Positions 5,257 to 33,120 of a stretch of DNA of 37,281 nt are shown here, one piece after another (position 1 is the stretch's first letter; each line of letters starts with the position of its first letter). The position numbers and the translations under genes were made by a program. Under the pieces are notes generated by a model. It saw only the letters and a program-made list of their open reading frames with translations, was not told where the DNA came from and made no database searches. Source of the DNA: a virus; the IMG/VR virus record IMGVR_UViG_3300047202_000046, positions 1 to 37,281 of that record; one strand, given 5' to 3'.

Positions 5257-5262
5257 CGGAAA

Positions 5263-5297: not shown

Positions 5298-5343
5298 CGA
5301 TTTCGCTTCTAATATAAAAAGAATGATGGAGGAAATATAACCT

Positions 5344-6324: not shown

Positions 6325-6325
6325 C

Positions 6326-6349
6326 GCGCCTTTACTAATCCTAGCAAGG
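6326..6349 (+). repeat. Copy 1 of the GCGCCTTT..TCCTAGCAAG element
   Basis: GCGCCTTT-ACTAA-TCCTAGCAAG starts 1 nt after the tail tube stop. Related copies lie at 12285-12308, 16342-16365 and, inverted, 29803-29826. The location at a gene end suggests a 3'-end or processing element. Confidence 0.55.
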
Positions 6350-6384
6350 TAGGGAATAGTTCTATAAGAAAGCGAGGGTTAAAG

Positions 6385-6729: not shown

Positions 6730-6887
6730 ATAAGAACGCCCCCGAAGAATACGAGCGCTACTTAGTAATGCGTCATATGAAGTGGTCGGAGTCAGAGCTT
6801 AATGCTTGTTCATTCGCTACATATCGAGATATATTACGCTTCATAAACACGGAGTCTAAATTCGACCAACAGAGGCAAAAACAATGA
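6385..6887 (+). CDS. Tail assembly chaperone, frameshifted (GT-type) form
   Basis: In the zero frame, codons CTA AAA AAA GAT contain the slippery heptamer A AAA AAA (6672-6678). A -1 slip makes the next codon AGA at 6678, and the new frame stays open to TGA at 6885-6887, adding 69 residues (RFDEQVYACLIAWS at its start, then NKNAPEEYERYLVMRH). The product would be 167 residues. The extension ends just inside the tape measure ATG (6884), the normal arrangement for GT proteins. A 200-nt open frame with protein-like composition and no ribosome site supports programmed frameshifting. The efficiency cannot be judged. Confidence 0.78.
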
Positions 6888-8389
6888 GCGATGCAACGCT
6901 TACCGTAAAGATTAGAGCAAACGATACGGCGTCAAAGACGCTGGAACAATTCAAAGCGCAACTTGAAAGCGTGCATACGACCGCGCGTAATCTCGGTGTC
7001 GGTATGCTCGCGATGGGTGGCGCGATTCTCGCGGGCTTTGGATTAGCGACGAAAGCGTACGCGGAAGAAGAAGCTGGCATAATGCGTCTCTCGACCGCGA
7101 TGCGTAATATGGGTTTATCGTACGACGATACTAAAGCCAGCCTCGAAGCTTGGATTGACGCCGAGCAACAAAAGACGGCTTTCGCAGACGACGAACAACG
7201 AGAATCGCTAGCAACGTTAATCTTAATGACGGGTAATCTCGCTTCCGCGCAAGACTATTTATCTCTTGCGATGGATATATCGGCGGGTACGGGTCGCGAT
7301 CTCGCTGGAGCAACGCAACTTATTCAATACGCTCTCGCGGGTAACTGGGGTATGTTAGAGCGTTATATACCCGCTCTAAAGGACGTACAGTCAGAAGAAG
7401 CAAAGTGGTATAAGCTTCGAGAGTTATTCACCGGACAAGCGCAAGTCTATGGCGCAACGCTCGCGGGTCAGATGCAGTTAATGAAGAATAACATCGAGGA
7501 TATTAAAGAGACTCTTGGCTCGACCGTCGCTGAAGCGTTACTACCGATGATACAAGGTATTAATAGTCTAACACAACAGATTAAGAACACTAATCCTGAG
7601 TTCTTAAAACTCGTTACGATGATCGGCGTTGGTGCGGGCGCGGGTTTAACATTAACTGGCGGACTCTTAATTCTAATATCGCAAATACCTGCTATTATAA
7701 CGGGTTTTCAAGCTATGCAAGGACTCGTTGTCGCGCTCGGCTTTAGCGTCAAAGTGTTAGCCGGAGAACTCGCGTTACTTACAGCGGGCTTCGCGATGAT
7801 AGGCTTCGGTATTTACGCCTTACAGAAGAACGCGGAGATTACAAAACTTAATACCGAGCTAACTAAAGGATACGAACTCGCATTAAAGGGTTATGACGCC
7901 GAATACGTCAAAGCGTTAGAGCATAAAGAAGCTATGGGATACGCGCTAAACGCGGAAACGAAAGCGTATATCGAGAGCGTTAAGGCGGTTAAAGCTTACT
8001 ACGACGCGATTAAAGCTCAAGCGAAAGCGCAAGAAGAAGCTAATCAGAAGTTACGAGAAGCGCTCGCGCTTATGAAGGAACAGAGTCGTCAACAAAATAT
8101 GTACAACTTAGGTATGGTTTATATGGGTTATTTGAATCCCGCTACCGGTGAGACGACGATGACGCCGGGACAAGCTAAAGAATTAGCAGATATGGTTAAA
8201 GGCGAACTACCTGGCTATCAACACGGTGGAGTAGTCGAACATACAGGACTCGCATACGTACATCAAGGCGAGACGGTATTACCACGTAACGCGAATCTTG
8301 TTATTGACTTGATACTTGATGGTGAAGTAATTAGTCGTAAAGTCGTAGACAATATAATGAACAAAGTAACTACACAAGGCGGTCGTTAA
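6884..8389 (+). CDS. Tape measure protein
   Basis: A 501-residue protein with an N-terminal amphipathic helix region (KIRANDTASKTLEQFKAQ), Ala/Gly-rich hydrophobic segments (residues ~40-60 and ~240-320) and long charged helices (residues ~330-410). The C-terminus (YQHGGVVEHTGLAYVHQGE then VLPRNA) is the usual tape measure ending. By the family rule of about 1.5 angstrom per residue the tail would be roughly 75 nm, short for a siphovirus. The start overlaps the end of the frameshifted chaperone and the stop overlaps the next ATG by one base. Confidence 0.9.
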   Translation: MSDATLTVKIRANDTASKTLEQFKAQLESVHTTARNLGVGMLAMGGAILAGFGLATKAYAEEEAGIMRLSTAMRNMGLSYDDTKASLEAWIDAEQQKTAFADDEQRESLATLILMTGNLASAQDYLSLAMDISAGTGRDLAGATQLIQYALAGNWGMLERYIPALKDVQSEEAKWYKLRELFTGQAQVYGATLAGQMQLMKNNIEDIKETLGSTVAEALLPMIQGINSLTQQIKNTNPEFLKLVTMIGVGAGAGLTLTGGLLILISQIPAIITGFQAMQGLVVALGFSVKVLAGELALLTAGFAMIGFGIYALQKNAEITKLNTELTKGYELALKGYDAEYVKALEHKEAMGYALNAETKAYIESVKAVKAYYDAIKAQAKAQEEANQKLREALALMKEQSRQQNMYNLGMVYMGYLNPATGETTMTPGQAKELADMVKGELPGYQHGGVVEHTGLAYVHQGETVLPRNANLVIDLILDGEVISRKVVDNIMNKVTTQGGR

Positions 8390-11049: not shown

Positions 11050-11558
11050 TAAGAGAAATTTCGTTAAGTGAGGCGAGACGCGGCGATATTCTCGTACATA
11101 AAGGCGAGGGTATCGTCTTCGAAATACTCTCGCGCTTCTTACGATTATTTGAATCGTGGTGGGATAGATGGGGCTGGCATATGTCGTTCGTCGTTTTGCG
11201 CGTAATGAATCAGCTTACGATCGCCGAAGCGAGAGAACTATTCACCGGATGTCGAGAGATTACTACGCAGACGAGTAATATACGATGCTATCGTTATTTC
11301 GACGAAGTACCAGACTTAGAAGCAACGAGCGTTTATTTAACGAATAGTATGGGAAAGCGTTACGACGTAGCCGTTTACTTCTTTACGATGATTCAATATC
11401 TCGTCTTACACTTTCGAAATAAGTCGTTACCGCGAATACTCGACGACCGCTATACGTGCTGGGAGTTAGTCTTCGATTACTGTACAGAGATGGGTAAGCC
11501 TATAACGACTATACGCAAGTATCCGATTCTAACCGACTTCTTAAAAGAGATTAAATGA
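11046..11558 (+). CDS. Permuted NlpC/P60-like (YiiX/papain-fold) protein, lysis or tail hydrolase candidate
   Basis: A 170-residue protein. The order GDILV (residues 13-17), then WHMSFVV with His45, then YTCWELV with Cys138, matches the permuted papain-like fold (YiiX/LRAT group) in which His precedes the catalytic Cys. Related proteins cleave peptidoglycan amide bonds or acyl links. It lies between tail hub and holin candidate, so it could be the endolysin or a tail-tip hydrolase. No other lysin is obvious in the genome. There is no signal peptide. The family call rests on three motifs. Confidence 0.55.
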   Translation: MIREISLSEARRGDILVHKGEGIVFEILSRFLRLFESWWDRWGWHMSFVVLRVMNQLTIAEARELFTGCREITTQTSNIRCYRYFDEVPDLEATSVYLTNSMGKRYDVAVYFFTMIQYLVLHFRNKSLPRILDDRYTCWELVFDYCTEMGKPITTIRKYPILTDFLKEIK

Positions 11559-12331
11559 ATAAATTATTTAATCATACGAGCGAGGATATGCGAGAACTCG
11601 AAAGCGGAAGCGTTAATCTCGTAATTACGTCTCCACCGTATAACGTAGGTAAAGAATATGAGACGACGCAAGAAATATACGACTACTTATCGTTTCTTCG
11701 TCGCGTTTGGAGTGAGTGTTATCGCGTACTCGCTTCCGATGGTCGAATCTGTGTTAACGTAGCAAATACTTTTCGACGTCCGTACGTATCATTATCAACA
11801 TACGTAGCAAAGGCGTTAAACGATACTGGCTTTCATATGCGAGGTGAGATAATCTGGAATAAGGGAGCGAGTGTCGGAGTCTCGACCGCGTGGGGAAGTT
11901 GGCTATCGGCAAGTAATCCGACTTTACGCGACGTTCACGAATATATACTAATATTCTCAAAGGAAACGTATAATCGTCAAAGAAAAGGCGAATCGACAAT
12001 TACGCGAGACGAATTTCTCGAATATACGAAAAGTATCTGGACATTCAGCGCGGAATCAGCGAAACGTATCGGGCATCCCGCACCATTCCCGATTGAGTTA
12101 CCTCGTCGTTTAATTCAATTATATAGTTATAAAGACGATTTAATACTTGACCCGTTTCTCGGTAGTGGTACGACGGCTCTCGCGTGTTTACTAACTAATA
12201 GACAGTACGTCGGTTATGATACAAGTGCTGAATATCTCGAATTAGCAAAACGACGTATAAAACAACTACTCGACGAACGAGATAGCGCCTTTTCGCGTCC
12301 TAGCAAGCCGAGTAATACTTCTACGGAGTAG
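11555..12331 (+). CDS. DNA methyltransferase, N4-cytosine/N6-adenine beta class
   Basis: A 258-residue AdoMet-dependent DNA methyltransferase. Motif IV is TSPPY (residues 25-29), typical of N4-cytosine enzymes but also found in some N6-adenine enzymes. The FxGxG motif I appears late as DPFLGSGTTALAC, giving the beta (circularly permuted) order. IWNKGASV and GHPAPFPIELPRRLI are further conserved segments. No restriction partner is present, so it is an orphan that probably protects phage DNA. Its place inside the lysis block, ATGA-coupled to the hydrolase gene, suggests late expression. The target sequence cannot be read. Confidence 0.88.
   Translation: MNKLFNHTSEDMRELESGSVNLVITSPPYNVGKEYETTQEIYDYLSFLRRVWSECYRVLASDGRICVNVANTFRRPYVSLSTYVAKALNDTGFHMRGEIIWNKGASVGVSTAWGSWLSASNPTLRDVHEYILIFSKETYNRQRKGESTITRDEFLEYTKSIWTFSAESAKRIGHPAPFPIELPRRLIQLYSYKDDLILDPFLGSGTTALACLLTNRQYVGYDTSAEYLELAKRRIKQLLDERDSAFSRPSKPSNTSTE
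12285..12308 (+). repeat. Copy 2 of the GCGCCTTTTCG..TCCTAGCAAG element
   Basis: GCGCCTTTTCG-CG-TCCTAGCAAG lies within the last codons of the methyltransferase gene. It is one base different over 20 positions from the copy after the integrase gene (16342-16361). It encodes part of the Ser/Pro-rich C-terminus, which may therefore be an addition. Confidence 0.55.
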
Positions 12332-12685: not shown

Positions 12686-12952
12686 ATGCCGTATATTAAA
12701 CCAGAAGCGAGAGAGAAATATGATAAGCTCATTAAGACGTTAGCACAAGAATTAACGCGTCCGGTCGGGGGAGTCGTTGACGGCGAAGTTAATTACGTTA
12801 TCTCTCGTCTTATTAATTTATCGTACGAGCGTCGATATGCCTCGTTAAATCGTGCTATTGGCGTTCTTGAATGTATAAAGCAAGAATACTATCGTCGCGT
12901 CGTTGCACCATATGAAGATGAAAAGATTAAAGAGAACGGAGACGTGTATTAG
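12686..12952 (+). CDS. DUF6899-like small protein
   Basis: An 88-residue protein with conserved phrases MPYIKPEAR, GEVNYVISRL, GVLECIKQEYYRR and APYEDEKIKENGDVY, which I recognise as a widespread phage/bacterial family of unknown function (DUF6899 as I recall it). Strong ribosome site GGGGGAAAGAG. The stop TAG overlaps the GTG start of the next gene by one base. Confidence 0.75.
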   Translation: MPYIKPEAREKYDKLIKTLAQELTRPVGGVVDGEVNYVISRLINLSYERRYASLNRAIGVLECIKQEYYRRVVAPYEDEKIKENGDVY

Positions 12953-14375: not shown

Positions 14376-14450
14376 GGGTCGTTAGCTCAGTTCGGTTAGA
14401 GCACTATCCTGATAAGATAGGGGTCGATAGTTCGAATCTATCACGACCCA
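14376..14450 (+). tRNA. tRNA-Ile (anticodon GAT)
   Basis: A full cloverleaf: 7-bp acceptor stem GGGTCGT/ACGACCC, D-arm GCTC/GAGC, anticodon stem CTATC/GATAG with loop CTGATAA (anticodon GAT), variable GGGTC, T-arm GATAG/CTATC with TTCGAAT loop, discriminator A. All stems pair perfectly. The 3' CCA is not encoded. It would read ATC and ATT codons; the phage also uses ATA heavily, which this tRNA should not decode. Confidence 0.95.
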
Positions 14451-14652
14451 CTTAGACGTGCGACTAGCGAAATACCTTGAAAACGGCTGAACGGCGTTGC
14501 TTTTTTATGTACCTTAATACTGCGTTTTAACGCTAGTTCTACGCAAATATACGTCTATTGAATCGACGTATAACGCGCTTTTGTTTTAAGATAAGAGACT
14601 CGATTACTCGTCGAGAATAAAAAACGGAAATAATAAAACGGAGGTAAAACAA
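14451..14652. other. Non-coding leader before the zinc-ribbon gene
   Basis: 202 bp without a gene. It holds a T-run (TTGCTTTTTTATG near 14498-14510) that may end the tRNA transcript, an 8-bp inverted repeat TATACGTC/GACGTATA (14548-14555 and 14565-14572) suited to a dimeric operator, a second small palindrome CTCGA/TCGAG around 14599-14615, and an 11-mer CGATTACTCGT (14601-14611) that recurs at 29940-29950. The region probably contains the promoter for the 14653 gene. Confidence 0.45.
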
Positions 14653-15280: not shown

Positions 15281-16315
15281 ATGGTTAACGAAACAGTACA
15301 TCAGCTTTACGATCAAATCTCACCGGCAAATCAAGAAGTCGTCGCGATGCTTATTCGCAATCTCGCGGAAAAAGAGGGTATCGAAGCGGTCGACTCTGCA
15401 TCGCTACATACGCCGCGCGAGGGCGTCGAACTCTGGGCAAGCGACTTAGAGCTTCAAGGCTTAACTCGCGGGACCGCGAAAAGCTATACGCAGAAAGTCG
15501 AAGCGTTACTCGACAAATACGCGAATCCGACAGAGGTCGATATTCGAACGTTTCTAACGAATCTAATGAAGACTGAGAAGAAAGGAACTGCCGCGAACTA
15601 TATCAAGGCGTTTCGTAGCTTCTTCCGCTATCTCTACGAAAACAAGCTTTGGAACTCGAATCCTGCGTTGCGACTCAAGCTACCGAAGAACGCTTACGTC
15701 GCACGTCGTAGTCCGACGGAAGACGAGATACGGAAGCTCGCGAGCGTTGTCGACGACTCGTATGACGCTTTTATTATCGAATTCTTATCGAATACCGGAT
15801 TACGCGTAAGCGAGTTTAATCATCTTAAGCCGAACGACGCGGACTTAGATCAACACCGGATAAGCGTTATCGGCAAAGGGCATAAACAGCGCTATATACC
15901 GATCGCGTCGGGTTTCTTTCCTCTATTTCAAGCTTACGTCGAGAAAGCGCGAGAGAATAATCAAATCTGGCTATTCCCTGCGGCGCGCTCGGATACGAAA
16001 CAAGGCTTTATAAATCGCGGAAGCGTAGCGCATATGCTTCGACGCTACTGTAGGAAAGCTAGTATCGAGAATATCAGTCCGCATCAGCTACGCCACTTCT
16101 TCGCGACTTATCTACTCTCGCGTGGCGGAGACGTCAAAGCGGTTAGCGAATTACTCGGACACGCGGACGTTACGATTACCCTTAAGATTTATCATCATAT
16201 CGGCGAGCGTAATATACGCGACGTCGTTGAGCGTCTCTCGCCAGCGTCGCAAGAGCCAAAACGTCTACAACCAGGTAAAATAATTGAAGGCGAGTTCCGA
16301 GAAGTCGAGCAGTAG
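15281..16315 (+). CDS. Tyrosine recombinase / integrase
   Basis: A 344-residue XerC/D-like tyrosine recombinase. It has an N-terminal SAM-like core-binding domain (residues ~45-130, LTRGTAKSYTQKVEALL) and a catalytic domain with the full set: R175 (TGLRVSEF), K199 (GKGHKQR), H268 and R271 (SPHQLRHFF), H294 (LLGHADVTIT), Y304 (KIYHH). Residues 1-40 are an additional helical arm. It could integrate the phage into a host chromosome or resolve genome multimers. It lies on the same strand as everything else. The attachment site is not identified. Confidence 0.92.
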   Translation: MVNETVHQLYDQISPANQEVVAMLIRNLAEKEGIEAVDSASLHTPREGVELWASDLELQGLTRGTAKSYTQKVEALLDKYANPTEVDIRTFLTNLMKTEKKGTAANYIKAFRSFFRYLYENKLWNSNPALRLKLPKNAYVARRSPTEDEIRKLASVVDDSYDAFIIEFLSNTGLRVSEFNHLKPNDADLDQHRISVIGKGHKQRYIPIASGFFPLFQAYVEKARENNQIWLFPAARSDTKQGFINRGSVAHMLRRYCRKASIENISPHQLRHFFATYLLSRGGDVKAVSELLGHADVTITLKIYHHIGERNIRDVVERLSPASQEPKRLQPGKIIEGEFREVEQ

Positions 16316-17626: not shown

Positions 17627-17912
17627 GAAGCGACAAGCTACGTTAAAGCGTCCTATTCGAACTTGCTGGCTATGCTTCAAGCAGAAGCGAAAGTATATGC
17701 ACGAACACCACGTTTTCCTACGTGAGAACGATCTTGAGACGACGCTTTGGTTATGCGCTGGCTGTCATTATCTAATCGGACTTCTCGCGAGACGGAAGTT
17801 CTTAAATAATGCGCAAACGCTCGAAGACTTAATTACACTCGCTCGCTTTCAAGCAGGACTCGAAGACGCGAAGACAATCATTAAGTTCGAATACACCGGA
17901 GGGAAGAAATGA
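17580..17912 (+). CDS. HNH-like endonuclease protein
   Basis: The ATG at 17580 (GGAGA 7 nt upstream) is preferred over the TTG at 17574; the product is 110 residues. Basic N-terminus (KALTPEQKARANKKRQATL), then CWLC, HEHHVF and CAGCHYLI: two CxxC pairs that flank a His-rich turn, as in zinc-bound HNH nucleases. The HNH motif is incomplete (no clear third N/H motif), so it could be a structural zinc protein. The stop overlaps the next ATG. Confidence 0.58.
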   Translation: MKRKALTPEQKARANKKRQATLKRPIRTCWLCFKQKRKYMHEHHVFLRENDLETTLWLCAGCHYLIGLLARRKFLNNAQTLEDLITLARFQAGLEDAKTIIKFEYTGGKK

Positions 17913-18433
17913 AAGCGAGATGGTATAAATATATCAAGATCGCCGAACGCATATCAAGAAAAGTTACAAAACAAGAGCGCGAGGATATGAGGAACGATAT
18001 TATTGTCGCTTTAGCGCAAGCGGAAATTGACTCTAAGAAAAGACTAAAGAATAATAATTTAGAGACGATCGCTTATAGAACTAAAACGCGTTACGACTTC
18101 GCTCGACGTGAACGTGGGTCTTTGTCTAGTCTTGATTTAATGCTTGAGAGAAATCCGCTTTTAGAAGCTACTCTTGGACACGAAGATGATACAACGCTAG
18201 AACTAATAGAAGAAGAAGACGAAAACGAACAGAATGAGATATTTGAGAAAGCTCTTGAAAAGTTAAGCGAACGAGAGCAACAAGTCATAAGATTATATCT
18301 CGGTTTCAATGAGCAAAGAGTTAAAATGAACTTTCGTCAAATCGCGAAAGAGCTTGGTATATCTCATATGACGGCACAAAGAGACATCGTAGTCGCTCTC
18401 AAAAAATTCAAGAATGTTACAAGCAAACGATAG
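17909..18433 (+). CDS. Sigma-70-like RNA polymerase factor
   Basis: A 174-residue protein. Residues ~20-70 resemble region 2 of small sigma factors (DMRNDIIVALAQAEID, AYRTKTRYDFARRERG). Residues ~118-170 form a region-4-like HTH (LSEREQQVIRLYLGF then NFRQIAKELGISHMTAQRDI). An acidic linker joins them (EEEDENEQNE). It could redirect host RNA polymerase to phage genes. The late genes show no conserved -10/-35 that I can assign to it. Coupled to the previous gene by ATGA. Confidence 0.7.
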   Translation: MKARWYKYIKIAERISRKVTKQEREDMRNDIIVALAQAEIDSKKRLKNNNLETIAYRTKTRYDFARRERGSLSSLDLMLERNPLLEATLGHEDDTTLELIEEEDENEQNEIFEKALEKLSEREQQVIRLYLGFNEQRVKMNFRQIAKELGISHMTAQRDIVVALKKFKNVTSKR

Positions 18434-19837: not shown

Positions 19838-20623
19838 ATGCCACAAGTCGGATGGTTATGTTCGCTTAATAAAAAGCTTGTAAGCTTTGACGATTGTATC
19901 GACTGCGCAAGACAGATTAATCCGCGCGGTCGTTGCGACTTTACGCCGGAGATACTAATAGGTATTCGTAACAGTATCTACCCGAAATCTCCGGAGCAGA
20001 TTCTTAAATCTAAGTCGCTAGGACTGACAACATTAATCGGGGAGACGCGCCAGCGTATTCTCGAACTTTTTTGTACTTACTACGCCGAGCCAAGCTGGTC
20101 AATGTATCGTGGTACTCTCGCACATAGTCTAATCGAGAACGTAACACGTAGCGACGCGTGGCACGAAGTAGCTTATAAGCGAACGCTTACTATAGACGGT
20201 GAGACGTGGTACGTAAGCGGACGTGCCGATGTTATCATTCCGTACAAACCAATTACTATTATCGACTATAAGACTACCGTCGCCGTACCGCGATACGAGA
20301 AGACTTATGGAAATCACAAAGAACAGCTTAACGCTTATCGCTGGCTATTCGAGCCTCTTTTTATTGCCGAGAAACTTCGCGTTGAGTATATGGATATGAA
20401 ACGTATACGCCGTATGGATGTAGAAATTGAAAACATCGCAGAAGTCGGAGAGCGCTTAAAAGAAAGCGCGGAGTTATACGTAAAGCATCTTAAAGCGAAG
20501 ACGGCTCCGCCAGGCGAATACGCTAAGAAGTATCCGTGTTCTTATTGTAGCGTGATAGAAGAATGCAAGAAATACAAAACGAATCAAAAACTCAACGGAG
20601 GAAGTAATGCCAAAAGAAGCTAA
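19838..20623 (+). CDS. Cas4/RecB-like PD-(D/E)XK nuclease
   Basis: A 261-residue single-strand-type nuclease. MYRGTLAHSLIE carries the conserved His, SGRADVI the first Asp, IIDYKTT the D-x-K pair, and the QLNAYRWL helix the Gln-Tyr motif. A C-terminal CSYCSVIEEC plus an N-terminal Cys (GRCDFTP) could hold a 4Fe-4S cluster, as in Cas4. Phage Cas4-like exonucleases process DNA ends in replication or recombination. No CRISPR locus is present. It precedes the possible OB-fold protein and the replicase. Confidence 0.83.
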   Translation: MPQVGWLCSLNKKLVSFDDCIDCARQINPRGRCDFTPEILIGIRNSIYPKSPEQILKSKSLGLTTLIGETRQRILELFCTYYAEPSWSMYRGTLAHSLIENVTRSDAWHEVAYKRTLTIDGETWYVSGRADVIIPYKPITIIDYKTTVAVPRYEKTYGNHKEQLNAYRWLFEPLFIAEKLRVEYMDMKRIRRMDVEIENIAEVGERLKESAELYVKHLKAKTAPPGEYAKKYPCSYCSVIEECKKYKTNQKLNGGSNAKRS

Positions 20624-20987
20624 AGTAAAGACACCGGAGCAAAGCGCAAAAGAGAGCGACCGAATTGTAAGTCGAGCGGGCGGCGGTTCGCCATACGGCG
20701 ATATTGAGAAAGTCAAGCTCGAAGACATTGTTGGCGAGGACGTTCGCGTACTCGACTTCGAAATCGCGACGACTGATATGTTCAAAGATGAAAAGGGTAA
20801 TCCTAAGCCGGTTGCCGAAGCAAAGCTTGAACTTATCGAGCGTAATAACAAAGTCGTACGTATCGTAATCTGGGCAACGACTGTTATCGGCGCGTTACGC
20901 GGGATCGACAAAGCGACTTTACCGCGCGTTACAAAGATCGACCGTGCGCGAAGTAAGAACGGGCGAAATATCTACGTATTAAGCTAG
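20607..20987 (+). CDS. Possible OB-fold (single-strand DNA-binding) protein
   Basis: A 126-residue protein overlapping the nuclease gene by 17 nt with CGGAGG upstream. VKLEDIVGEDVRVLDFEIATTD, PVAEAKLELIERNNKVVRIVIWA and an alternating strand pattern to the end (GRNIYVLS) resemble an OB-fold, and the position between nuclease and replicase fits a single-strand DNA-binding protein. No diagnostic motif is present and the C-terminus lacks the acidic tip of bacterial SSB. Confidence 0.4.
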   Translation: MPKEAKVKTPEQSAKESDRIVSRAGGGSPYGDIEKVKLEDIVGEDVRVLDFEIATTDMFKDEKGNPKPVAEAKLELIERNNKVVRIVIWATTVIGALRGIDKATLPRVTKIDRARSKNGRNIYVLS

Positions 20988-20995
20988 AGGCTATC

Positions 20996-23900
20996 TTGAA
21001 TCTTCCGAAGACAAAACGAGACTATATCGATCTATACGTATCTCTCGGCTTTACGCCTATTCCTATCTACGCCGGCGAGAAGAAACCGTCGGTACATTGG
21101 GAAGAATGGCAGACGAAGCGACCGAGTAAAGATAAGATACGTAGCTGGTTCGATTATACCGACCGAGACGTAGCGACGATTTGCGGAAACGTAAGCGATG
21201 GCTTAGTTGTGATTGACTGCGATAATCAAGCGACGTTCGATCTTATAACGAAGAATATTGAACTCGTTAAAAAGACGATTATCGTTAAGTCGCCACACGG
21301 CTGGCATATCTATCTACGAACGGATAACGTTCCGACGCCGAGACACTATCGCTTAGACGACATTAAGCTCGATATTCTCGGCGAGGGTAGTATCGTCGTT
21401 TTACCGCCGTCAACGTCTAGCGCCGGCGTCTATGCTTTCGACGCGTCTCTCTCGACCGATGATTATACAATTCTGCGGATGGATAACGTGATTGGAACGG
21501 TCGAAGACGCGTTACGCATAGTCGGAATTGATGTTGCTAAAGCAACGTCGCTACGCTCGGATAATGAACGTCTCGGAGACGAGGGCTTTCGAGAGCTTCT
21601 CGCTAACGTAAAAGAGGGCAATCGACACGATGTAGTTCTTCGAGCGACAAACTATCTCAAGCAAAAGTCGTCGCTGAGTCTCGAAGCTATATACGACTAT
21701 CTCGCGCCATACGTTCTTAACTGTCCTGCGGAACATTCTTGGACGGATAAAGAGCTTCGCGCGGAGATTCTCAAAGCTTTTAACTATAAGAGCAACGAAC
21801 AGCGCTACTTCGAAAAGAATAATCCGCAACCGCTAAAGATGAAGAATCCTGACGATATTAAAGAAGCTCAGCTCGGAGAATCTTTAATTGACGGAGTTTT
21901 ACATCGTTCCGATGTAATTCTATTATATGCTCCATCCGGAGAGGGTAAGTCTATCTATGCAACGAATATCTGCGCGGCACTTATAAATGGAACTCGTGCA
22001 CTCGAATTATGGAATACGCGTAAATGTCGCGTTGGATTCGCTGATTACGAGATGCCTGTCGGCGAGTTAAAGCTTCGCTTTCACGAGATACTAGGGAACA
22101 CGCTCGGATATTCGAATTTCTTTACGGAGAGCTTTCAAGGGCGTCGTTTAATCAACGAAGCGCATATAGACGAACTTGAAGCGAATATAAAAGAACTAAA
22201 ACTCGACGTACTAATTATCGATAATCTAAGCTCAGCAAGCGGAACGGTTAAAGACGAGAATACCGGAGTACAGCGCGACGTTATGGACACGATTCGAGGA
22301 CTCGCTAAGAGAACTAACTGCGCGATTATCGTCATTCATCATACGGGAAAGCCTAAGTACGACCCCGACGGTAATTCCGTTCGTATGACGCCACGCGGTC
22401 ATTCGTCTATAAGCGACGCTTCCGACGTAGAACTTCAAATATTAAAGACCGAGCGAGAGAACGTTACCTCGCTATTATGTACAAAGTCTCGCGGCGTTCG
22501 TAATACGATACGTAAAGAATGGCGTCGCGACTTTTATTATGACTCGGATTCGTTTACGATTACGCCGTTAAACGAAGAAGACTCGACGAAGACGACTACC
22601 GTTGCGCGATTAAAGAGCGCTAAAGAAGCGCTTAAAATAGGCGACCGCGAGCTAGGCGATTTATTAAGTGTTAATTTCTCAACCGTCGCTCGCTGGCTAA
22701 GAGGCGAAAACTTACCGAGCGAGACACGACTTTCTAAAATACGCGAAATAATCGAGAATCTTGAAAATCGACTTGGAAAAAGCGTGTCGTCCGAAAACGC
22801 AACACTAGCGCAACGCCTTGAAGGAAATGAGCGCGCTCCTTATATAAATAAAAAGAATGATGTATCACAAACGGAGACGAAAACTTCGAGCGTTAAGCAT
22901 AATAGCGCTAAAGCGAAGAAGACTACTATCGACTTAAATAATCCGTGCGCGTCTTGCCCGGCGTGTAAAGAGAAGACGACAAGATTCGTTGACGGCGAGG
23001 GTACGTGTTCGAACGGGATAATGTTTATCGCCCAGTGTCCGGGCGAAGTCGAAATGACTACAACTCCGCGACGACCGCTTATCGGTCCCGCCGGTCAAGA
23101 GTTTAATCGATTACTAAAAGTCGCTTATATAAAACGAGAAGAATGTCGGATAACGAATCTCGTTAAATGTGGTCATATTAAACCGCCGGATCCGCTTAAA
23201 AAAGAGGTCGATTGTTGCTCGATACTTCTACAAAGAGAAATCGAGAAGTATAAACCGAAGCTCATTATTCCGCTAGGGTCGTACGCGTGGAGTTTCTTCG
23301 GTTTTAATACAACGATTAGCTCGTCTCACGGAAAGCTATTTAAGCGCGAGACGTTTAACCGACCGTACGACTTACTTCCGATGTATCACCCGTCGGCAGT
23401 TCTTCATAATCCCGGATTAAAAAAGATATTAAATCACGACTTCGACGATCTACACTTTAAGACAAGCGCTATCGTAACGCTACCCCGCGGTAAATACGAA
23501 AAGGCGCTATCGTTCGATAGTCGAGATACTACCGCGTTTGACTTCGAAACCGAGAGTCTAGATTCTTATTCTAGCGTCTTAGGCACGTCTTACAGCGATC
23601 GAGACGGTCAAGCGGTTTACGTCGTCGGAGAGCCTAAAGAGATTCTTATTAAGCGAGCGATCGCGCATAATGCTAAGTTCGAGCTTAAGCGTCTTAAGAC
23701 TCGCGGTATAAAGTATAACTTCGATCGCTTAGACGACTCATATCTACTAGCGAAAGTTCTCTGTTTAGAACACGGCGGATTAAAAGAGTTAGCGCTTAGC
23801 GAACTAGGCGTTATAATGACGCGCTTTGAAGATATTGCAGTTAATAACTCACTCGTCGAAGCGAATCTCGACGAGGTCGTTAAGTACGCTTGCGCGGATA

Positions 23901-25129
23901 GCGATATGACCCGTCAGCTATTTAATAAGCTCGAACTCGTCGCGAAGCGAGACTTTCCTAAACTCTGGAAGCTATACGACGAAATTGAGCGTCTCGTTAC
24001 GCCCGTTATCGTCGATATGGAATTAATCGGACTTCGTATCGACGTAGACTATCTAAACGAGGTCGGTAAAGAGCTTGATAAAGAACTAAAAGAAATCGCG
24101 AAGAAAGCTGAGCGAGACTTCGAATTAACAGAGACGATTATTAACTCTCCGAAACAACTTGGCGAGTATCTTAAAGCGCACAACGTACCAATATGGAAGA
24201 AGACAAGTACCGGACAGTTAAGTACAGAAGCCGACGTTCTCGAAGCGCTAGCACACGACTATCCGTTTATACAAGCCGTACTCGAATATCGAAAGCCCGC
24301 GAAGCTTAAGAGTACGTACGTTGACGGTTGGTTGAAGCTTATCGACTCTAATAATTACGTCTATCCGGAATATACGCAGATTATAAACTCTGGTCGTTTA
24401 TCGAGTAACGAGCCTAACGCTCAGAATTTACCGGTCGGGGACAAGATACGACGAGCGATTATAGCACCGGAGGGTAAGAAGCTTGCCGCGTTCGATTATT
24501 CTCAAGCGCATATCGTTATCGTCGCATATCTCGCTGAAGACGACGAAATACTCGAATCGTTTAGAAATGGTATCGACTTTCATACGCAGACCGCGAACGA
24601 TTTAGGCGTAAAAGCGGTTGGTGATATGCCGGCGCGACAGATAGCGAAGCATCTTAATTACGCGATGATTAAAGGCGCTTCCGCGCAGAGACTAGCGACC
24701 GACGCGGGCGTATCTAAAGAAGAAGCGGAAGAATTTATAGCGCTTTGGTATAAGAGACACCCAAAAGTTAAGCGCTATCTCGACGAGACGACCGCTTTCG
24801 CTAAAGCTCACGGCTATACGGATTCGTTTTACGGGCGTCGTCGTTATAGCGACAAAGTCTTCGCGAGCGACTTTCGTACGATTAACGAGGGCGTACGCGA
24901 GCTAGTCGATATGCCGATGCAAGGAACGGAAGCAGATATTATGAAGAAAGCAATGATAGCTTGTTACGGATTAGCGCCGATCTGTATGCAAGTACACGAC
25001 GAGCTAGTCTTTATCGTTAATCAAAAAGATAAAGCGCTTCTCGACGAGATTAAACGACGTATGACGAGCGTAACCGATATTCCTATTCAGGTCGAATGTA
25101 AAGTTGCCGATAATTTCGGAGACGTGTAA
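20996..25129 (+). CDS. Single-chain replicase: Prim-Pol, helicase, HTH, uracil-DNA glycosylase, 3'-5' exonuclease, family A polymerase
   Basis: A 1377-residue protein starting at TTG (GAGG 5 nt upstream). Domains by residue: Prim-Pol 1-170 (VVIDCDN D74/D76, SPHGWHIYL, VVLPPS). RepA-like RecA-type ATPase ~285-510 (Walker A APSGEGKS 312-319, Walker B VLIIDN, IHHTG). HTH ~541-590 (GDRELGDLLSVNFSTVARWLRG). Uracil-DNA glycosylase ~648-822 with Cys pairs for a cluster (CPAC, NLVKC, then CC after a 14-residue gap), PLIGPAG, LIIPLGSYAW and HPSAVL. Exonuclease ~845-990 (FDFETE, HNAKFE, YACADSD). Polymerase ~1000-1377 (FDYSQ 1166-1170, RQIAKHLNYAMIKG, QVHDE). All parts appear intact and in frame. Such a fusion would prime, unwind, proofread and synthesise in one molecule. 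Confidence 0.93.
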   Translation: MNLPKTKRDYIDLYVSLGFTPIPIYAGEKKPSVHWEEWQTKRPSKDKIRSWFDYTDRDVATICGNVSDGLVVIDCDNQATFDLITKNIELVKKTIIVKSPHGWHIYLRTDNVPTPRHYRLDDIKLDILGEGSIVVLPPSTSSAGVYAFDASLSTDDYTILRMDNVIGTVEDALRIVGIDVAKATSLRSDNERLGDEGFRELLANVKEGNRHDVVLRATNYLKQKSSLSLEAIYDYLAPYVLNCPAEHSWTDKELRAEILKAFNYKSNEQRYFEKNNPQPLKMKNPDDIKEAQLGESLIDGVLHRSDVILLYAPSGEGKSIYATNICAALINGTRALELWNTRKCRVGFADYEMPVGELKLRFHEILGNTLGYSNFFTESFQGRRLINEAHIDELEANIKELKLDVLIIDNLSSASGTVKDENTGVQRDVMDTIRGLAKRTNCAIIVIHHTGKPKYDPDGNSVRMTPRGHSSISDASDVELQILKTERENVTSLLCTKSRGVRNTIRKEWRRDFYYDSDSFTITPLNEEDSTKTTTVARLKSAKEALKIGDRELGDLLSVNFSTVARWLRGENLPSETRLSKIREIIENLENRLGKSVSSENATLAQRLEGNERAPYINKKNDVSQTETKTSSVKHNSAKAKKTTIDLNNPCASCPACKEKTTRFVDGEGTCSNGIMFIAQCPGEVEMTTTPRRPLIGPAGQEFNRLLKVAYIKREECRITNLVKCGHIKPPDPLKKEVDCCSILLQREIEKYKPKLIIPLGSYAWSFFGFNTTISSSHGKLFKRETFNRPYDLLPMYHPSAVLHNPGLKKILNHDFDDLHFKTSAIVTLPRGKYEKALSFDSRDTTAFDFETESLDSYSSVLGTSYSDRDGQAVYVVGEPKEILIKRAIAHNAKFELKRLKTRGIKYNFDRLDDSYLLAKVLCLEHGGLKELALSELGVIMTRFEDIAVNNSLVEANLDEVVKYACADSDMTRQLFNKLELVAKRDFPKLWKLYDEIERLVTPVIVDMELIGLRIDVDYLNEVGKELDKELKEIAKKAERDFELTETIINSPKQLGEYLKAHNVPIWKKTSTGQLSTEADVLEALAHDYPFIQAVLEYRKPAKLKSTYVDGWLKLIDSNNYVYPEYTQIINSGRLSSNEPNAQNLPVGDKIRRAIIAPEGKKLAAFDYSQAHIVIVAYLAEDDEILESFRNGIDFHTQTANDLGVKAVGDMPARQIAKHLNYAMIKGASAQRLATDAGVSKEEAEEFIALWYKRHPKVKRYLDETTAFAKAHGYTDSFYGRRRYSDKVFASDFRTINEGVRELVDMPMQGTEADIMKKAMIACYGLAPICMQVHDELVFIVNQKDKALLDEIKRRMTSVTDIPIQVECKVADNFGDV

Positions 25130-26221
25130 ATGAATAAATTAGTCGTATCTAAAGGTAAGTCGATTCTCGACTGCGGAGACGCTATACTTGACCAGTTTCG
25201 TAAAGACTTCTTAGATCCGACGCTCGGTATTGGTGAGCTTGCGCAGAAATATAATCGTGCGTCGAGTACGATTTATAACTGGGGTAATATCGAACTCGGT
25301 TTACATCGACCTAAACTCAAGGTTGATAATCGGACAACGTATCGCGACTTACTCGCGTCGGTTAGTAAGATGGCGCTCGCGATACCGGAAGTTAAAGTTC
25401 CTTATACTCCGGCTAGTTATGCGGATAATGCCTCACTAATTGCTAAAATCTCCGACGCGCACTTCGGACGCTTAACGAATTCCTTTAATCGAGATATTGC
25501 GATAAAGCGTATTGCGAGACTCGGTAAGGAAATCGATACTCTCGCGATCGGAAGTCAATATTATGCGAAAACGCTCGAAGTATTCTTTGAGGGCGATTTA
25601 GTTCTCGGAGAGCGAATCGGTATACAGGTTAACGTCGAAGAAATCGAGCGCTTAATTATGTCACAAATTTTTGAACTCTCGGTTCCATATCTCTCACAAT
25701 TTCTACTTGATAGACTCCAGAGCTTTGAAACGATTAACGTTCACGGAGTACGTGGCAATCACGGCGACTTAGGTAAGTTCCAGTCGAAGTCCGCGAATTG
25801 GGACACATTCGTCTATAAGATAATCGAGCAACGTCTTATTAATCAACCGCGAATTAAATTTGATATTGAAGTACAAAACTTCTATAAATATGCGAGAGTT
25901 CAAGACTTAGACTTTCTTATCGTACACGGCGATCAGTTCAAAGCGTCAAACGGTATTCCATATAACAATATAATCTCGAAGACGATGCGCTGGCAAAGCT
26001 CTATGCCGCGACACTTCGATGTACTAAGCTTCGCGCACTTCCATTCCGCGTCGAAATTTATGATAGGGAACGTTCGCGCTTACGGTAACGGAACAATTTT
26101 AAGCGACGATGAGTGGGTACGCGAAGTTCTCGGCTTAAGCGGAACAACGTCTCAAGTAGCGCTCGTCGTCTCTGGCAAAGATATTATTCTTGAGCGCGAA
26201 ATAAATCTATCGGAGTGTTAG
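25130..26221 (+). CDS. Calcineurin-like metallophosphatase with N-terminal HTH
   Basis: 363 residues. Residues ~30-60 (GIGELAQKYNRASSTIYNWG) form a helix-turn-helix. The phosphatase domain has the full metal set: SDAHFG (D109, H111), EGDLVLG, RGNHGD, VHGDQF, and AHFHSA. Related proteins include SbcD/Mre11 nucleases and phage phosphoesterases. It follows the replicase directly (ATG right after the stop), so a DNA end-processing role is likely. Confidence 0.82.
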   Translation: MNKLVVSKGKSILDCGDAILDQFRKDFLDPTLGIGELAQKYNRASSTIYNWGNIELGLHRPKLKVDNRTTYRDLLASVSKMALAIPEVKVPYTPASYADNASLIAKISDAHFGRLTNSFNRDIAIKRIARLGKEIDTLAIGSQYYAKTLEVFFEGDLVLGERIGIQVNVEEIERLIMSQIFELSVPYLSQFLLDRLQSFETINVHGVRGNHGDLGKFQSKSANWDTFVYKIIEQRLINQPRIKFDIEVQNFYKYARVQDLDFLIVHGDQFKASNGIPYNNIISKTMRWQSSMPRHFDVLSFAHFHSASKFMIGNVRAYGNGTILSDDEWVREVLGLSGTTSQVALVVSGKDIILEREINLSEC

Positions 26222-27197: not shown

Positions 27198-29066
27198 ATG
27201 CCGCTTATTGACTTAGGAAATAGAACTTGGAAACTACCTCACATATCGGGTGAGGATATTCTGCTTGGTAGTGGTAAAGCAGGTAACTTTGAGCCTAAAT
27301 TGACTTTGCCCTGTTTTCTAGGGGAGTCTAAATTAAACTTCATTCCTCAAGTCTTGGCTCTGAATGCCGAAGTGCGGGGCGATGAACTGGTAGCAGGGAA
27401 CTCTAACTATCAATTTAAGTGGAAAGCTACGAGTGTAAATCCTCTATTCAATGAACGTGGTGGTATGGATATAATCATCACGCTAAATAAAAAGCCACCT
27501 AGAAACTACATTGAGTTTGGATATGATGCCACAAAATTAGTGGCTTACCATCAGCCTGAACTAACCGCTAAAGAGATAGCAGAAGGATGTTTCAGACCAG
27601 ACCATGTTATTAATTCAATAGCATGGTATCACAACACTAAGGGCGGGCTGGTAACACCTTCTGACGTAAAGAGATTTATTACGACAGGTAAAGCGTTTCA
27701 TACCTATAGACTGTTAGTTACCGATGCTCTGGGGAATAAAACGTGGGCTGACTGGACTCTGGAACTGGACAATATAGTCAGGCTCACGGTAGACCAAGTA
27801 TTTCTCAATACGTGTGTTTATCCAGTAGTCATAGCACCAGTGGGGGATACGTTCGGATATACAGGTTTTGGTGGTGGAGGTTCTGCGGTAGGTTTTTACG
27901 GTCCCTACAGAACGATTCTTACCACTACTAAGGGCGGAACAGTTATTGATATAAATGCCTATGTTTTCAATGACCCAAGTAATGGTAACAAATATGCCAA
28001 AATGGCTATTTATAGTGGAAATAACATTATCTCTAATGGTGTTTCCCCGCAAATAACAGTTCCAGAAGGCACAACTGGATGGGTTGCATCTACTTATGTG
28101 AGTTCACCAACAATAAGTGCCATTACACCTTATGGGTTAGCTTTAATGATGGAGGATGCTTATCCGTATTATACTCTCCAGTATTATGATTCTGCTACAG
28201 GGGGAGTTCATGGTTGGGACACCACAACTTATGGAACATTCCCTGACCCTTGGTCAGACGATGGTTCTGGAACTCGTCGATGTTCCATCTACTGCGAATT
28301 CACACCAAGCGGGGGCGGACTCGTCGAGTTTTGTTCAGATACGGAAGCGTTGAGTGACTCTCTGATAAGACGCGGGCGTACGAATCGCTTCTCTGCGGAG
28401 ACGATTACGCTCGGAGAGTCTAGCGTACGTCGACTCCGTTCAACACGATTCGTTATAGAGACAATGAGTCTTATCGACTTATTAATAAGACGCGCGTACT
28501 CAAATAGATTTATCTCCGAGACGATAAGTATCGTCGATAGCTTCGTAAAAGCATTTCCGGGCTTACCGATCGTTAAAATACTCGACGAGACTCTTAGTAT
28601 TGGCGAGAGTCTAATGCGTCGTCTACGCGGTATCTACTATACGAATAATGACGAGAGTATCTCCGACTCTCCGATAAGACGCGGACGCGTCGTTAAATTA
28701 TTCGGAGAGACGCTTACGAATATCGAGAGCGTACTACGTCGAGGGCGTATTATATTACTCGAAAGTACGTCAGAGAGTCTAAGCGAGATAGAGATACGAC
28801 GCTTACGCGGTATCTACGCGCTAAGCGAGCCGGAGACGCTTACAGAGACTTCCGTTAGACGCGGGCGGTCGGTACGTCTACTCACCGAGATGCAATCGCT
28901 TATCGACTCATTACTATACTCGATGCCCGGACTTCGACGTATTCTTAACTGGATAGTAAATCTATTCTCGCGTGATAAGACATCCTCGCTACGCGCGTAC
29001 GATATTGAAGCGGATATAAACGAGCGCGATATAACGCTTACTGCGCAAACGGAGGAACAAGAATGA
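27198..29066 (+). CDS. Mosaic tail fibre protein with foreign N-terminal half and about ten 20-residue repeats
   Basis: 622 residues. Residues ~1-370 are beta-rich (Gly-rich turn YTGFGGGGSAVGFYG; YGTFPDPWSDDGSG) and encoded by DNA with a quite different base pattern: I count 7 CpG in 27301-27600 versus 35 in 28321-28620. Residues ~379-570 are about ten imperfect repeats around an ETLSIGESLMRRLRG-like unit (ETITLGESSVRRLRS, ETLTNIESVLRRGR, and others). The tail ~570-622 is basic then acidic. It probably acts as a receptor-binding or adhesive fibre in which an imported head was joined to a resident repeat stalk. Confidence 0.72.
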   Translation: MPLIDLGNRTWKLPHISGEDILLGSGKAGNFEPKLTLPCFLGESKLNFIPQVLALNAEVRGDELVAGNSNYQFKWKATSVNPLFNERGGMDIIITLNKKPPRNYIEFGYDATKLVAYHQPELTAKEIAEGCFRPDHVINSIAWYHNTKGGLVTPSDVKRFITTGKAFHTYRLLVTDALGNKTWADWTLELDNIVRLTVDQVFLNTCVYPVVIAPVGDTFGYTGFGGGGSAVGFYGPYRTILTTTKGGTVIDINAYVFNDPSNGNKYAKMAIYSGNNIISNGVSPQITVPEGTTGWVASTYVSSPTISAITPYGLALMMEDAYPYYTLQYYDSATGGVHGWDTTTYGTFPDPWSDDGSGTRRCSIYCEFTPSGGGLVEFCSDTEALSDSLIRRGRTNRFSAETITLGESSVRRLRSTRFVIETMSLIDLLIRRAYSNRFISETISIVDSFVKAFPGLPIVKILDETLSIGESLMRRLRGIYYTNNDESISDSPIRRGRVVKLFGETLTNIESVLRRGRIILLESTSESLSEIEIRRLRGIYALSEPETLTETSVRRGRSVRLLTEMQSLIDSLLYSMPGLRRILNWIVNLFSRDKTSSLRAYDIEADINERDITLTAQTEEQE

Positions 29067-30712: not shown

Positions 30713-31444
30713 ATGAAGGTTAGCGATTCAAGATTAGTTCAACGGAATCAAATTAGACAATATCTTATCTTAAGTCTATTTCCAGGTATCGATTTACTCG
30801 GTTTCGCTTTCGAGTTAGTTGGCTTCTGCGTTGTGCGTGGACCCGACGTTATCGTTGGTCAAGATATTCGCGACTGGCACGCAACGAAGAAAGTCTTCGA
30901 CGGTATTATCGGAGGCGCGCCTTGTCAGGAATTCAGTGTCGCGAAGAATAGCTTTAATGACTCTAAATTCGGCAATTTATTACCGGAATTCGAGCGCGCA
31001 ATAAGAGAAGCTCAACCGTATTGGTATTTAGCCGAGAATGTTCCGAAAGCGCCATATCCGAATATCGAGGGCTATCACGTTACAACGTATGACTTAGACG
31101 CGGCAGACTTTGGTTCTTGGCAGATGCGACATAGACGCTTCGCTTTCGGTTGTCGCGACGATAAGAAGCTCGATATTAAGCCGTTCGTAGCACGTCGCGA
31201 CGATATTATTCATTGCGTCACCGCGACTAAGTATAAAGGAACTGCAAATGATTCCCGTCGCGCTAGTCGAGACTTTGGAAGACGAATGACTCTCGACGAA
31301 ATTAAAGAAGCTTTCGGACTCGACAAGTCTTGGGATGCTACTGCATTTACAGTCGCAGAGAAATATAGAGCGCTCGGTAATGGTGTTCCGCTTCATTTAG
31401 GTTACGCTATCGCCGATGCTATAAGACGAGCATTATTACTATGA
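30713..31444 (+). CDS. C5-cytosine DNA methyltransferase (Dcm-like)
   Basis: A 243-residue enzyme with motif I SLFPGIDLLGFAFE, catalytic motif IV GAPCQEFS (Cys nucleophile), motif VI ENVPKAP, motif VIII QMRHRRFAFG and motif X ALGNGVPLHLGYAI. The target-recognition region is very short, as in many phage enzymes. It would put 5-methylcytosine in a short sequence I cannot read. No restriction partner is present. ATGA-coupled to the GNAT-ABC gene, so both are translated together. Confidence 0.9.
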   Translation: MKVSDSRLVQRNQIRQYLILSLFPGIDLLGFAFELVGFCVVRGPDVIVGQDIRDWHATKKVFDGIIGGAPCQEFSVAKNSFNDSKFGNLLPEFERAIREAQPYWYLAENVPKAPYPNIEGYHVTTYDLDAADFGSWQMRHRRFAFGCRDDKKLDIKPFVARRDDIIHCVTATKYKGTANDSRRASRDFGRRMTLDEIKEAFGLDKSWDATAFTVAEKYRALGNGVPLHLGYAIADAIRRALLL

Positions 31445-33120
31445 AAGTAAAAACGATTAAACGCCTAGCGAATATGAAGCTCGTAACGTTCGACACCGGA
31501 GAAACGCTTGAGGTTGCGACGTCCGCGCGTGTAAGTAAAGAAGACGAGATCGTTAAGCGCGATCACGGATACTTTGTCATTTGCGATAATGGTGAAGCGC
31601 AAATATCACCAACGTATAGCGTCAAGAAGCTAATGGTGATAGGCGGTTTAATGCTACCTGTCGAGATTAAAGAGCCAACTACCGAGCAAGAGTTTGACGA
31701 TATTGAGTGGCTTCAGAAATTCCACTATCTTGGCGAGCAATGTCTTAAGCTTTCGACGCTTATCGTAACAACGTCTTTACCGAATCTACCGCATACGCTC
31801 GGTTTTATTATTCTAGCGACCGCGCTTAATGCGTGTAAACCAAGAACGCCAGTAGTTAAGATGCTTTGCGAAGACGCTCATTTCGCGCCCGCGTGGTTCG
31901 CGGTACGCTTCGTTCGTGTCGTCGTACACCCGGAGTTTAGAGGTACGGGCGTCGCGAAGCTTCTAATCGAGCAGGCTATCGAATACTCGAAGAAGCGCTT
32001 CGCGATTACAAAACATAAGCCGATTATCGCAGAAATAGTCGCGGCGATGTTACGATACTCGCCGTTCGTCAATCGCTATATGTATTATCTTGGAGATACC
32101 GCCGATGCGAAGACAGCGTTTAATTTAAGCGAACGAGGACTTACACATCAAATAAGTAATAAAGGGAGTAAGTCCTCCGGAGCCAAAAGCTATTATGAGA
32201 ATTATCTAAAGAAAGCGAGAGAGATAGCCGGGAATTTAGATGTATCGATTGATGCGGTCTTCAATATGGTTAAAGACGTGGAGAATCTCGATATAGAGAA
32301 GCGCGTTGATATACAGAAGCTTCTACACTCGCCGAAGCCGTTTTATGCAGTCGGGCTTAATGACGAAGCGAATAAAGTCGTAAAGAGTCTTGCTAAACCA
32401 TCTCCGATCGGCTATCGATCGCGACATCATAGTATATGTACACCAATTATCTTTAAGAGCGTCGAGGTTACGTTCGAAGAAAGCGCAAAAGCGACTGAAC
32501 GTACTCTCGCAGTTCAAGAGGCGTTCGGCGTATCGCCTCGCGGTTGGAAGCAGACCGTCTTAAAAGACTTTACTCTCGAAATAAAGCCCGGTGAGATCGT
32601 TCTCTTAACTGGTATAAGCGGAAGCGGTAAGTCAATCGTCCTTAGAGCGATACAGAATAGACTTCAACTTACGCGAGGGTGGATTATATTTCCTAAAGAC
32701 GCTAAGGTCGCGACGCTCGAAGAAATAAAGAGCGACGAGCCACTAATCGACTTAGTCGGAGAGACGATCGAAGAAGCGTTTTATACGCTTAATAAAGTCG
32801 GACTCGGCGAAGCTAAGCTCTATATGAAACCGTATAAGACACTATCGACTGGACAGAAGTATCGCGCTTGTATCGCGAAGCTTATCGATAGTGACGCGAA
32901 TATCTGGATTGCCGACGAGTTCGGTTCAACGCTCGATATTATAACGGCGAACGTTGTCGCATCTAGCGTTCAGCGCCATTGTCGAAGTACAGGAATTACA
33001 TTTATTGCCGCTTGCGCTAATCCCGAAAGTTATCTTAACTCGCTTAAGCCTGACTATATTATCGACTTGAGCGCTGGTCGAACACGAATAACTAGAATGG
33101 AGCAGACAAATGAAGTCTAA
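31441..33120 (+). CDS. GNAT acetyltransferase fused to ABC-type ATPase (COG2401-like)
   Basis: 559 residues. N-terminal ~1-70 is a small beta domain. ~80-210 is a GNAT-like fold (EWLQKFHYLGEQ; acetyl-CoA loop VVHPEFRGTGVAKLLIEQA). ~335-545 is an ABC ATPase: Walker A GISGSGKS (391-398), signature LSTGQ (468-472), Walker B WIADEFG, D-loop STLD. The H-loop His is absent (AACANPE). I recognise this fusion as COG2401-like, of unknown reaction. GNAT enzymes of phage DNA modification (such as Mom) suggest a role on DNA. No membrane domain, so not a transporter. Confidence 0.8.
   Translation: MKVKTIKRLANMKLVTFDTGETLEVATSARVSKEDEIVKRDHGYFVICDNGEAQISPTYSVKKLMVIGGLMLPVEIKEPTTEQEFDDIEWLQKFHYLGEQCLKLSTLIVTTSLPNLPHTLGFIILATALNACKPRTPVVKMLCEDAHFAPAWFAVRFVRVVVHPEFRGTGVAKLLIEQAIEYSKKRFAITKHKPIIAEIVAAMLRYSPFVNRYMYYLGDTADAKTAFNLSERGLTHQISNKGSKSSGAKSYYENYLKKAREIAGNLDVSIDAVFNMVKDVENLDIEKRVDIQKLLHSPKPFYAVGLNDEANKVVKSLAKPSPIGYRSRHHSICTPIIFKSVEVTFEESAKATERTLAVQEAFGVSPRGWKQTVLKDFTLEIKPGEIVLLTGISGSGKSIVLRAIQNRLQLTRGWIIFPKDAKVATLEEIKSDEPLIDLVGETIEEAFYTLNKVGLGEAKLYMKPYKTLSTGQKYRACIAKLIDSDANIWIADEFGSTLDIITANVVASSVQRHCRSTGITFIAACANPESYLNSLKPDYIIDLSAGRTRITRMEQTNEV

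Follow-up and report, generated by a model that had tools for sequence, protein, structure and literature searches.

In the 37,281-base IMG/VR virus record IMGVR_UViG_3300047202_000046, which at its full length is called the window here, a single gene encodes a replicase of 1377 amino acids (aa) that, judged from its sequence, is a head-to-tail fusion of two replication proteins: a Prim-Pol-ATPase-helix-turn-helix (HTH) protein of about 650 aa and a uracil-DNA glycosylase (UDG)-exonuclease-family A polymerase (PolA) protein of about 800 aa. We consider it likely that through this fusion the gene encodes the phage's own self-contained replisome as one polypeptide. From the N-terminus, a Prim-Pol domain and a probable helix bundle are followed by a RepA-type RecA-fold ATPase, a probable HTH, a family-4-like UDG, a 3'-5' exonuclease and a family A polymerase (Table 1). 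The replisome reading is based on the identities of these domains, their retained catalytic residues and structural models, on the replication and recombination nucleases encoded beside the gene on the same strand, on two other phages in which a PrimPol-helicase gene stands directly before an exonuclease-PolA (exo-PolA) gene, and on the precedent of GP55 from lactococcal phage 1706. The novelty is the full set with a UDG in one chain, while a fused multi-activity phage replicase with a polymerase of another family is known, and so are both halves alone.

The gene is intact and its open frame was confirmed: the 1377 codons are read through without a stop, and AGAGG, a Shine-Dalgarno-like sequence, precedes the TTG start. 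Domains were called with the curated cut-offs of Pfam, and five of them score above these limits, which upholds the proposal of an initial annotation that a full replication set lies in one polypeptide; the UDG and helicase regions, for which profile support had been demanded, are both among them (Pfam UDG and AAA_25). A frameshift or an assembly join inside the gene, the danger named in the same annotation, gained no support, since codon usage is uniform across the fusion junction, where it resembles that of other genes in the window, and the DNA of polymerase motif A gave no sign of compensating frameshifts. A frameshift as the cause of the odd motif A itself was likewise considered and dropped after this DNA had been read. 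Within the linker that joins the two halves, no start codon stands behind a good ribosome site.

In the N-terminal half the Pfam Prim-Pol match (residues 14-148, E 4e-14) exceeds its cut-off, D74/D76, H104 and D126 are invariant in the alignment with Prim-Pol relatives and represent the motifs DxD/E, sxH and hD, and the model of the primase can be superimposed on pRN1 ORF904 (1rni; Z 16.5, 173 aligned residues, 2.9 A). A probable helix bundle, unlisted in the initial annotation, sits between the primase and the ATPase; the PriCT models of Pfam gave no match to the window protein, and PriCT_1 occupies this position in separate-gene relatives. The ATPase matches AAA_25 above the cut-off (residues 295-453, E 3e-23) and has a RepA-type fold with Walker A and B, its model being close to RSF1010 RepA (1olo; Z 17.3, 152 aligned residues, 2.4 A). 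The catalytic residues of both the Prim-Pol and the Walker ATPase are retained. The HTH was assigned mainly because the stand-alone relatives have an HTH-like segment in the corresponding position, with which their chains finish; its place makes a role as origin binder plausible. No origin-like iteron array was found near the replicase gene, and the GC skew has no turning point.

The Pfam UDG model (PF03167) covers residues 673-810 with an E of 3e-21 and 76.5 bits against a cut-off of 24.3. The model of UDG family 4, TIGR00758, scores 116.1 bits (E 1e-33) under its curated cut-off of 125.3, and the domain is therefore called family-4-like and is not placed in family 4; the UdgX model TIGR03914 reaches 73.9 bits against a cut-off of 189.95. 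By sequence the nearest UDGs are family 4 enzymes from archaea and Thermus (PDB entries 4zbx, E 1e-25, and 1ui0, E 2e-24), and C651, C654, C725 and C741 align with the conserved cysteines of other UDGs, the predicted ligands of an iron-sulphur cluster. The exonuclease (DNA_pol_A_exo1, residues 847-981, E 5e-7) and the polymerase (PF00476, E 2e-87, 294 bits) both lie over their Pfam cut-offs. The AlphaFold2 model of residues 641-1377 has a predicted local distance difference test score (pLDDT) of 91.3 and a predicted template modelling score (pTM) of 0.79, and its exonuclease and polymerase parts align with the Klenow structure 1kfs over 534 residues (Z 39.7, 3.6 A). The polymerase retains its carboxylates, D1167 (D705) and D1335/E1336 (D882/E883), together with R1214 (R754), K1218 (K758) and the equivalent of R668.

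Both halves are found as separate proteins. Relatives of the first half were collected at 80 IMG/VR loci, mostly as proteins of 640-690 aa that run from Prim-Pol through a helix bundle and a RepA-like ATPase to an HTH-like end and go no further. The second half has its relatives in UDG-exo-PolA proteins with a length near 800 aa, present at about 44 of 80 IMG/VR loci among the matches listed, a set retrieved with patterns that were partly based on the UDG motif; the same organisation is carried by the SPO1-like phages, by Pseudomonas phage Lebethron and by MW202455. Residues 593-642, the linker, are outside the coverage of the relatives of either half, and as these end or begin at the linker, the fusion point falls between the boundaries of two stand-alone proteins. 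The initial annotation had supposed that primase-helicase and UDG-polymerase fusions may exist separately, and both have turned out to be common in phages. Its further remark that the full set is not known to have been described together stands for the databases and open-access papers searched, but the UDG-exo-PolA part alone is already common.

IMG/VR was scanned with the single protein, with a UDG-Pol alignment, with a Prim-Pol alignment and with an alignment headed by the full-length protein; no full-length relative was among the matches listed, and as the scans used short motifs this does not prove absence. INPHARED and PLSDB held no record that covers 80% of the protein, and none of 50 Prim-Pol loci in the GTDB species genomes was fused. 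Six loci with matches spanning both ends (L228, L237, L246, L251, L263 and L286) contained no open reading frame with both Prim-Pol/ATPase and polymerase. In L228 (5953-9959) the gene for a Prim-Pol-PriCT-D5 helicase and an exo-PolA gene share an ATGA overlap, and in L263 an exo-PolA gene lies 245 bases beyond a Prim-Pol-DnaB gene. Gene pairs of this sort are plausible forerunners of such fusions, and the L228 overlap is a natural half-way arrangement. In L237 a frame of 1061 residues (stop to stop, 5018-8200) carries Prim-Pol and AAA_25 with a long middle region, and a separate PolA gene (2431-4359) lies nearby on the same strand. L027 and its kin encode, several kilobases from each other, a Prim-Pol protein that has a P-loop ATPase and a separate exo-PolA, in the company of a similar type of nuclease. 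This phage with split genes (L027:3579-3851) also has in common with the window (12686-12952) a DUF6899 protein that ends in ...APYEDEKIKENGDVY.

In a tree of polymerase domains the window stands near bacterial-type PolAs that lack a UDG (98/64 with L010) and apart from most UDG-PolA phages, on a long branch whose fork is not starred and has limited support. This hints at a separate acquisition of the UDG, so that UDG and PolA may have been joined more than once. Another large fusion was seen in L022:2989-6891 (IMGVR_UViG_3300009529_001106), where one frame of 1300 aa comprises an ABC-type ATPase, a GNAT acetyltransferase, UDG, exonuclease and PolA; the window has a separate ABC and GNAT protein at 31441-33120.

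Several points weigh against the replisome reading and have to be set beside the explanations that they favour. In the N-terminal half the HTH_3 match (residues 540-584, E 0.002) remains below its cut-off with 18.3 bits against 23, and the AlphaFold2 model is middling (pLDDT 63.8, pTM 0.38). The initial annotation spoke of recognisable key residues in every domain, which is true of the Prim-Pol, the Walker ATPase and the PolA carboxylates, but the UDG, the exonuclease and the polymerase carry substitutions near their catalytic sites. Motif 1 of the UDG is AQCPG instead of GE[AG]PG (E41Q and G42C; among 26 other aligned UDGs, position 41 is E in 22 and position 42 is A in 22), F54 is replaced by Leu, and N89 is lost with its loop rearranged, a position judged by alignment only. 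On account of these changes uracil excision may be weak or absent, and weak excision or a non-excising DNA contact appears about as likely as efficient excision. In the UDGa of T. thermophilus E41Q alone lowers k2/Km from 2.4e5 to 2.7e2, about 900-fold (PMC5387724), and vaccinia D4 provides the precedent of a UDG within the processivity factor of the pox polymerase (PMC5682278); together with the altered residues, both speak for the UDG being a DNA-binding or processivity module like D4 and not a repair enzyme. We regard this as a serious possibility that falls somewhat short of being favoured: H155 (H798), N80 (N721), E47 (E686) and all four cluster cysteines are retained, GEAPG is kept in most fused UDGs, a second mutation at G42, where the window has Cys, can make up for most of the loss through E41Q (with G42D added, k2/Km returns to 4.5e4), and E41Q also made the binding of the Thermus enzyme to uracil DNA undetectable (PMC5387724). 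The exonuclease has kept four residues of the DEDDy set D355, E357, D424, Y497 and D501, with D424 changed to E896; the equivalent residue is D in 35 of the 36 other sequences that have one there. The polymerase deviates at 5 of 20 near-invariant columns, and none of the 39 others does so at more than two. At the position of E710, where E is present in every one of the 39 polymerases compared, the window has His (H1172); R712 is Val (V1174), Y766 is Lys (K1226) where all others have Tyr or Phe, and F762 is Tyr (Y1222). Motif A thus reads DYSQAHIV in place of DYSQxELR, which is typical but not needed for membership of the fold, and a search of IMG/VR for FDYSQAHI returned two antisense matches only, both in terminase regions. 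E710 and Y766 contact each other in family A polymerases, and their joint change suggests an altered check of the nucleotide. In E. coli Pol I ribonucleotides are excluded by E710, assisted by F762 (PMC13228545). The altered site (H1172, V1174, Y1222, K1226) could also mark a decaying or synthesis-dead polymerase, with the Prim-Pol as the real replicase; the excess of deviating columns agrees with this, as does the ability of the ORF904 Prim-Pol to extend primers over kilobases on its own (PMC4538821). We find it rather improbable, given that the equivalents of D705, D882, E883, R754, K758 and R668 are kept, that the fold is intact at high model confidence, and that the substitutions gather on the sugar-selecting side and are not scattered.

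The linker of about 50 residues bears on two other explanations. Being predicted as disordered and separating two independently common proteins, it could be the site where one chain is cut into a separate primase-helicase and UDG-polymerase, as in Plasmodium PREX; OS3173, a related polymerase from a thermophilic virus, has been described as a polyprotein, and the Plasmodium relative is proteolytically processed (PMC7689252). Such a polyprotein seems unlikely to us, as neither a protease gene nor a cleavage motif is known that would bring this about, and GP55, an all-in-one replicase with a family B polymerase (PolB), functions in vitro uncut (PMC12205980). The chief weakness of the replisome reading is that the junction was seen in a single assembly: it is spanned by no second contig, and an exact 30-base linker probe met no other contig in IMG/VR, a search that may have passed over records belonging to the same genome as the window. 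Two adjacent genes might therefore have been joined by a missed stop or in a chimeric contig, and the halves do exist as separate proteins, with PrimPol-helicase and PolA genes adjacent in some cases. We nevertheless hold an artefact of assembly or sequencing to be very unlikely. Besides the even codon usage on both sides, the linker stays in frame without stops over its whole length, a single missed stop would have this effect only if the two genes also happened to share a frame and to be suitably spaced, and the independent contig L172, a 100% match over 6.8 kb elsewhere in the window, argues that the assembly is generally sound.

If the protein acts as a self-contained replisome, the HTH and the ATPase would load it onto the phage origin or onto single-stranded DNA, and the RepA/DnaB-like ATPase, to judge by its fold, would form a ring and unwind. 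The Prim-Pol, whose motifs are intact, would make a primer with the helix bundle, and the primer would reach the tethered PolA in cis by way of the flexible linker, to be extended there with proofreading through the DEDDy sites. The UDG would travel with the polymerase and could bind or remove uracil near the primer-template. A more detailed version, in which a ring binds the origin, unwinds, primes and hands primers in cis to a uracil-surveying polymerase with a sugar gate rebuilt (E710H and Y766K) for a handling of ribonucleotides or modified nucleotides that no characterised family A enzyme shows, is speculative and, taken as a whole, doubtful.

The large genes of the replication region are all on the + strand, and the Cas4/RecB-like nuclease is likely to belong to the same replication module as the replicase. 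The 6,781 bases of contig L172 bridge the end of the window to its start (37281 to 1) with 12 bases between (L172:4975-4986), and since its ends are thus joined, the window represents a nearly complete genome that is circular or circularly permuted. A tRNA-Ile (14376-14451) and a tyrosine recombinase (15281-16315) suggest a temperate phage; the Tyr at polymerase position 762, which a survey has linked to lytic phages, contrasts with these temperate-type genes. The window also contains two DNA methyltransferases, one of N4/N6 and one of cytosine-C5 type (at 11555-12331 and 30713-31444), a small protein with sigma-70 region 4 (17909-18433), possibly a phage sigma factor, and repeats spaced by about 180 bases (28356-28870) inside a protein of 622 residues (27198-29066) whose sequence looks like a string of similar units of about 60 residues.

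Table 1. Features of the replicase gene and of its neighbours in the window.
Feature	Position	Strand	Details
Whole gene, 1377-aa multi-domain replicase	20996..25129	+	TTG start
Prim-Pol (AEP) primase-polymerase domain	21005..21553	+	residues 4-186; motifs D74xD76, H104, D126; Pfam PF09250
Helix-bundle (PriCT-like) region	21578..21784	+	residues 195-263; four helices in model; conserved G208/R210
RepA-type RecA-fold ATPase/helicase	21869..22561	+	residues 292-522; Walker A SGEGKS, E352, D409, HH448-449; Pfam AAA_25
Probable HTH	22604..22753	+	residues 537-586; Pfam HTH_3 below cut-off
Linker joining the two halves	22772..22921	+	residues 593-642; pLDDT <50, predicted disordered
Family-4-like uracil-DNA glycosylase	22946..23452	+	cluster cysteines C651, C654, C725, C741; motif 1 AQCPG; H798
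3'-5' exonuclease (DEDDy)	23528..23950	+	D849, E851, E896 (E. coli D424), Y964, D968; Pfam DNA_pol_A_exo1
Family A DNA polymerase	24047..25120	+	residues 1018-1375; Pfam PF00476
Polymerase motif A FDYSQAHIV	24491..24517	+	H1172 at the steric-gate position, replacing E710
Polymerase motif B RQIAKHLNYAMIKG	24635..24676	+	Y1222 (F762), K1226 (Y766)
PD-(D/E)XK nuclease, Cas4/RecB-like	19838..20623	+	Pfam PDDEXK_1 E 4e-10; PHROG exonuclease and CRISPR-associated families
126-aa protein just upstream of replicase	20607..20987	+	no Pfam or PHROG match
Phage exonuclease-type metallophosphoesterase	25130..26221	+	phrog_284 E 1e-31; Metallophos E 0.003; begins directly at the base following the replicase stop

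Within the searches made, this protein would unite more of a family A replisome than any other natural fusion: besides priming and unwinding, its single chain would provide proofreading synthesis and a domain for base surveillance. The full set, with a UDG and a steric gate that has been rebuilt, is truly interesting, and it offers a testable system for studying primer hand-off in cis, the reason why many phage polymerases carry a UDG, and nucleotide selection by a PolA with a steric gate other than glutamate. For isothermal amplification there would also be practical interest in one enzyme able to copy DNA with no need of added primers.

Among known systems, the polymerases of SPO1-like phages, Lebethron and MW202455 have the same order of UDG, exonuclease and PolA, but they are of about 800-925 aa, without primase or helicase, and have the motif A DYSQxELR. 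Stand-alone phage proteins such as those of L104 and L125, and the CRP-810 primase WOZ07716.1, share the order of Prim-Pol, helix bundle and RepA-like ATPase, and the IMG/VR members end HTH-like, but this type stops at about 640-690 aa without UDG or polymerase. pRN1 ORF904 and RSF1010 RepA have the primase and ATPase folds; however, they are separate plasmid proteins, neither with PolA or UDG. Pas55 of phiAsp2, a long phage PolA obtained in the structure search, resembles the replicase as a phage protein of 1415 aa with a C-terminal PolA; it has DUF3854 near its N-terminus and no match to Prim-Pol, AAA_25 or UDG, and with this different N-terminus it was rejected as a relative of the full set.

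Among the open-access papers searched the nearest counterpart is GP55, followed by the DUF927-exo-PolA polyprotein of hot-spring viruses (PMC7689252). In the OS3173/Pyrovirus polyprotein, as in Plasmodium PREX, a helicase/primase-like N-terminus is fused to 3'-5' exo-PolA, and these viruses also have a Cas4-RecB-like nuclease in the replication block and fused and split forms within one virus group (PMC7689252). They differ in that the N-terminus is DUF927/COG5519 and not Prim-Pol with a RepA-type ATPase, no UDG has been reported, and PREX is processed; Pfam found no DUF927 in the window replicase. GP55 is a helicase-AEP-PolB protein whose four activities in one protein were termed unprecedented by its authors (PMC12205980). 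Like the replicase of the window, it is a single phage protein of comparable size (1317 aa) which unites helicase, AEP-type primase, 3'-5' exonuclease and polymerase and serves as the replicase of its phage. It differs in having the helicase first, a PriS-like primase with aHD and not a helix bundle, and a family B polymerase, with no UDG or HTH reported. The window protein does not have this helicase-PriS-aHD-PolB architecture, as it starts with Prim-Pol and has PolA; the polymerase domains of the two are non-homologous, so that the two architectures were built independently.

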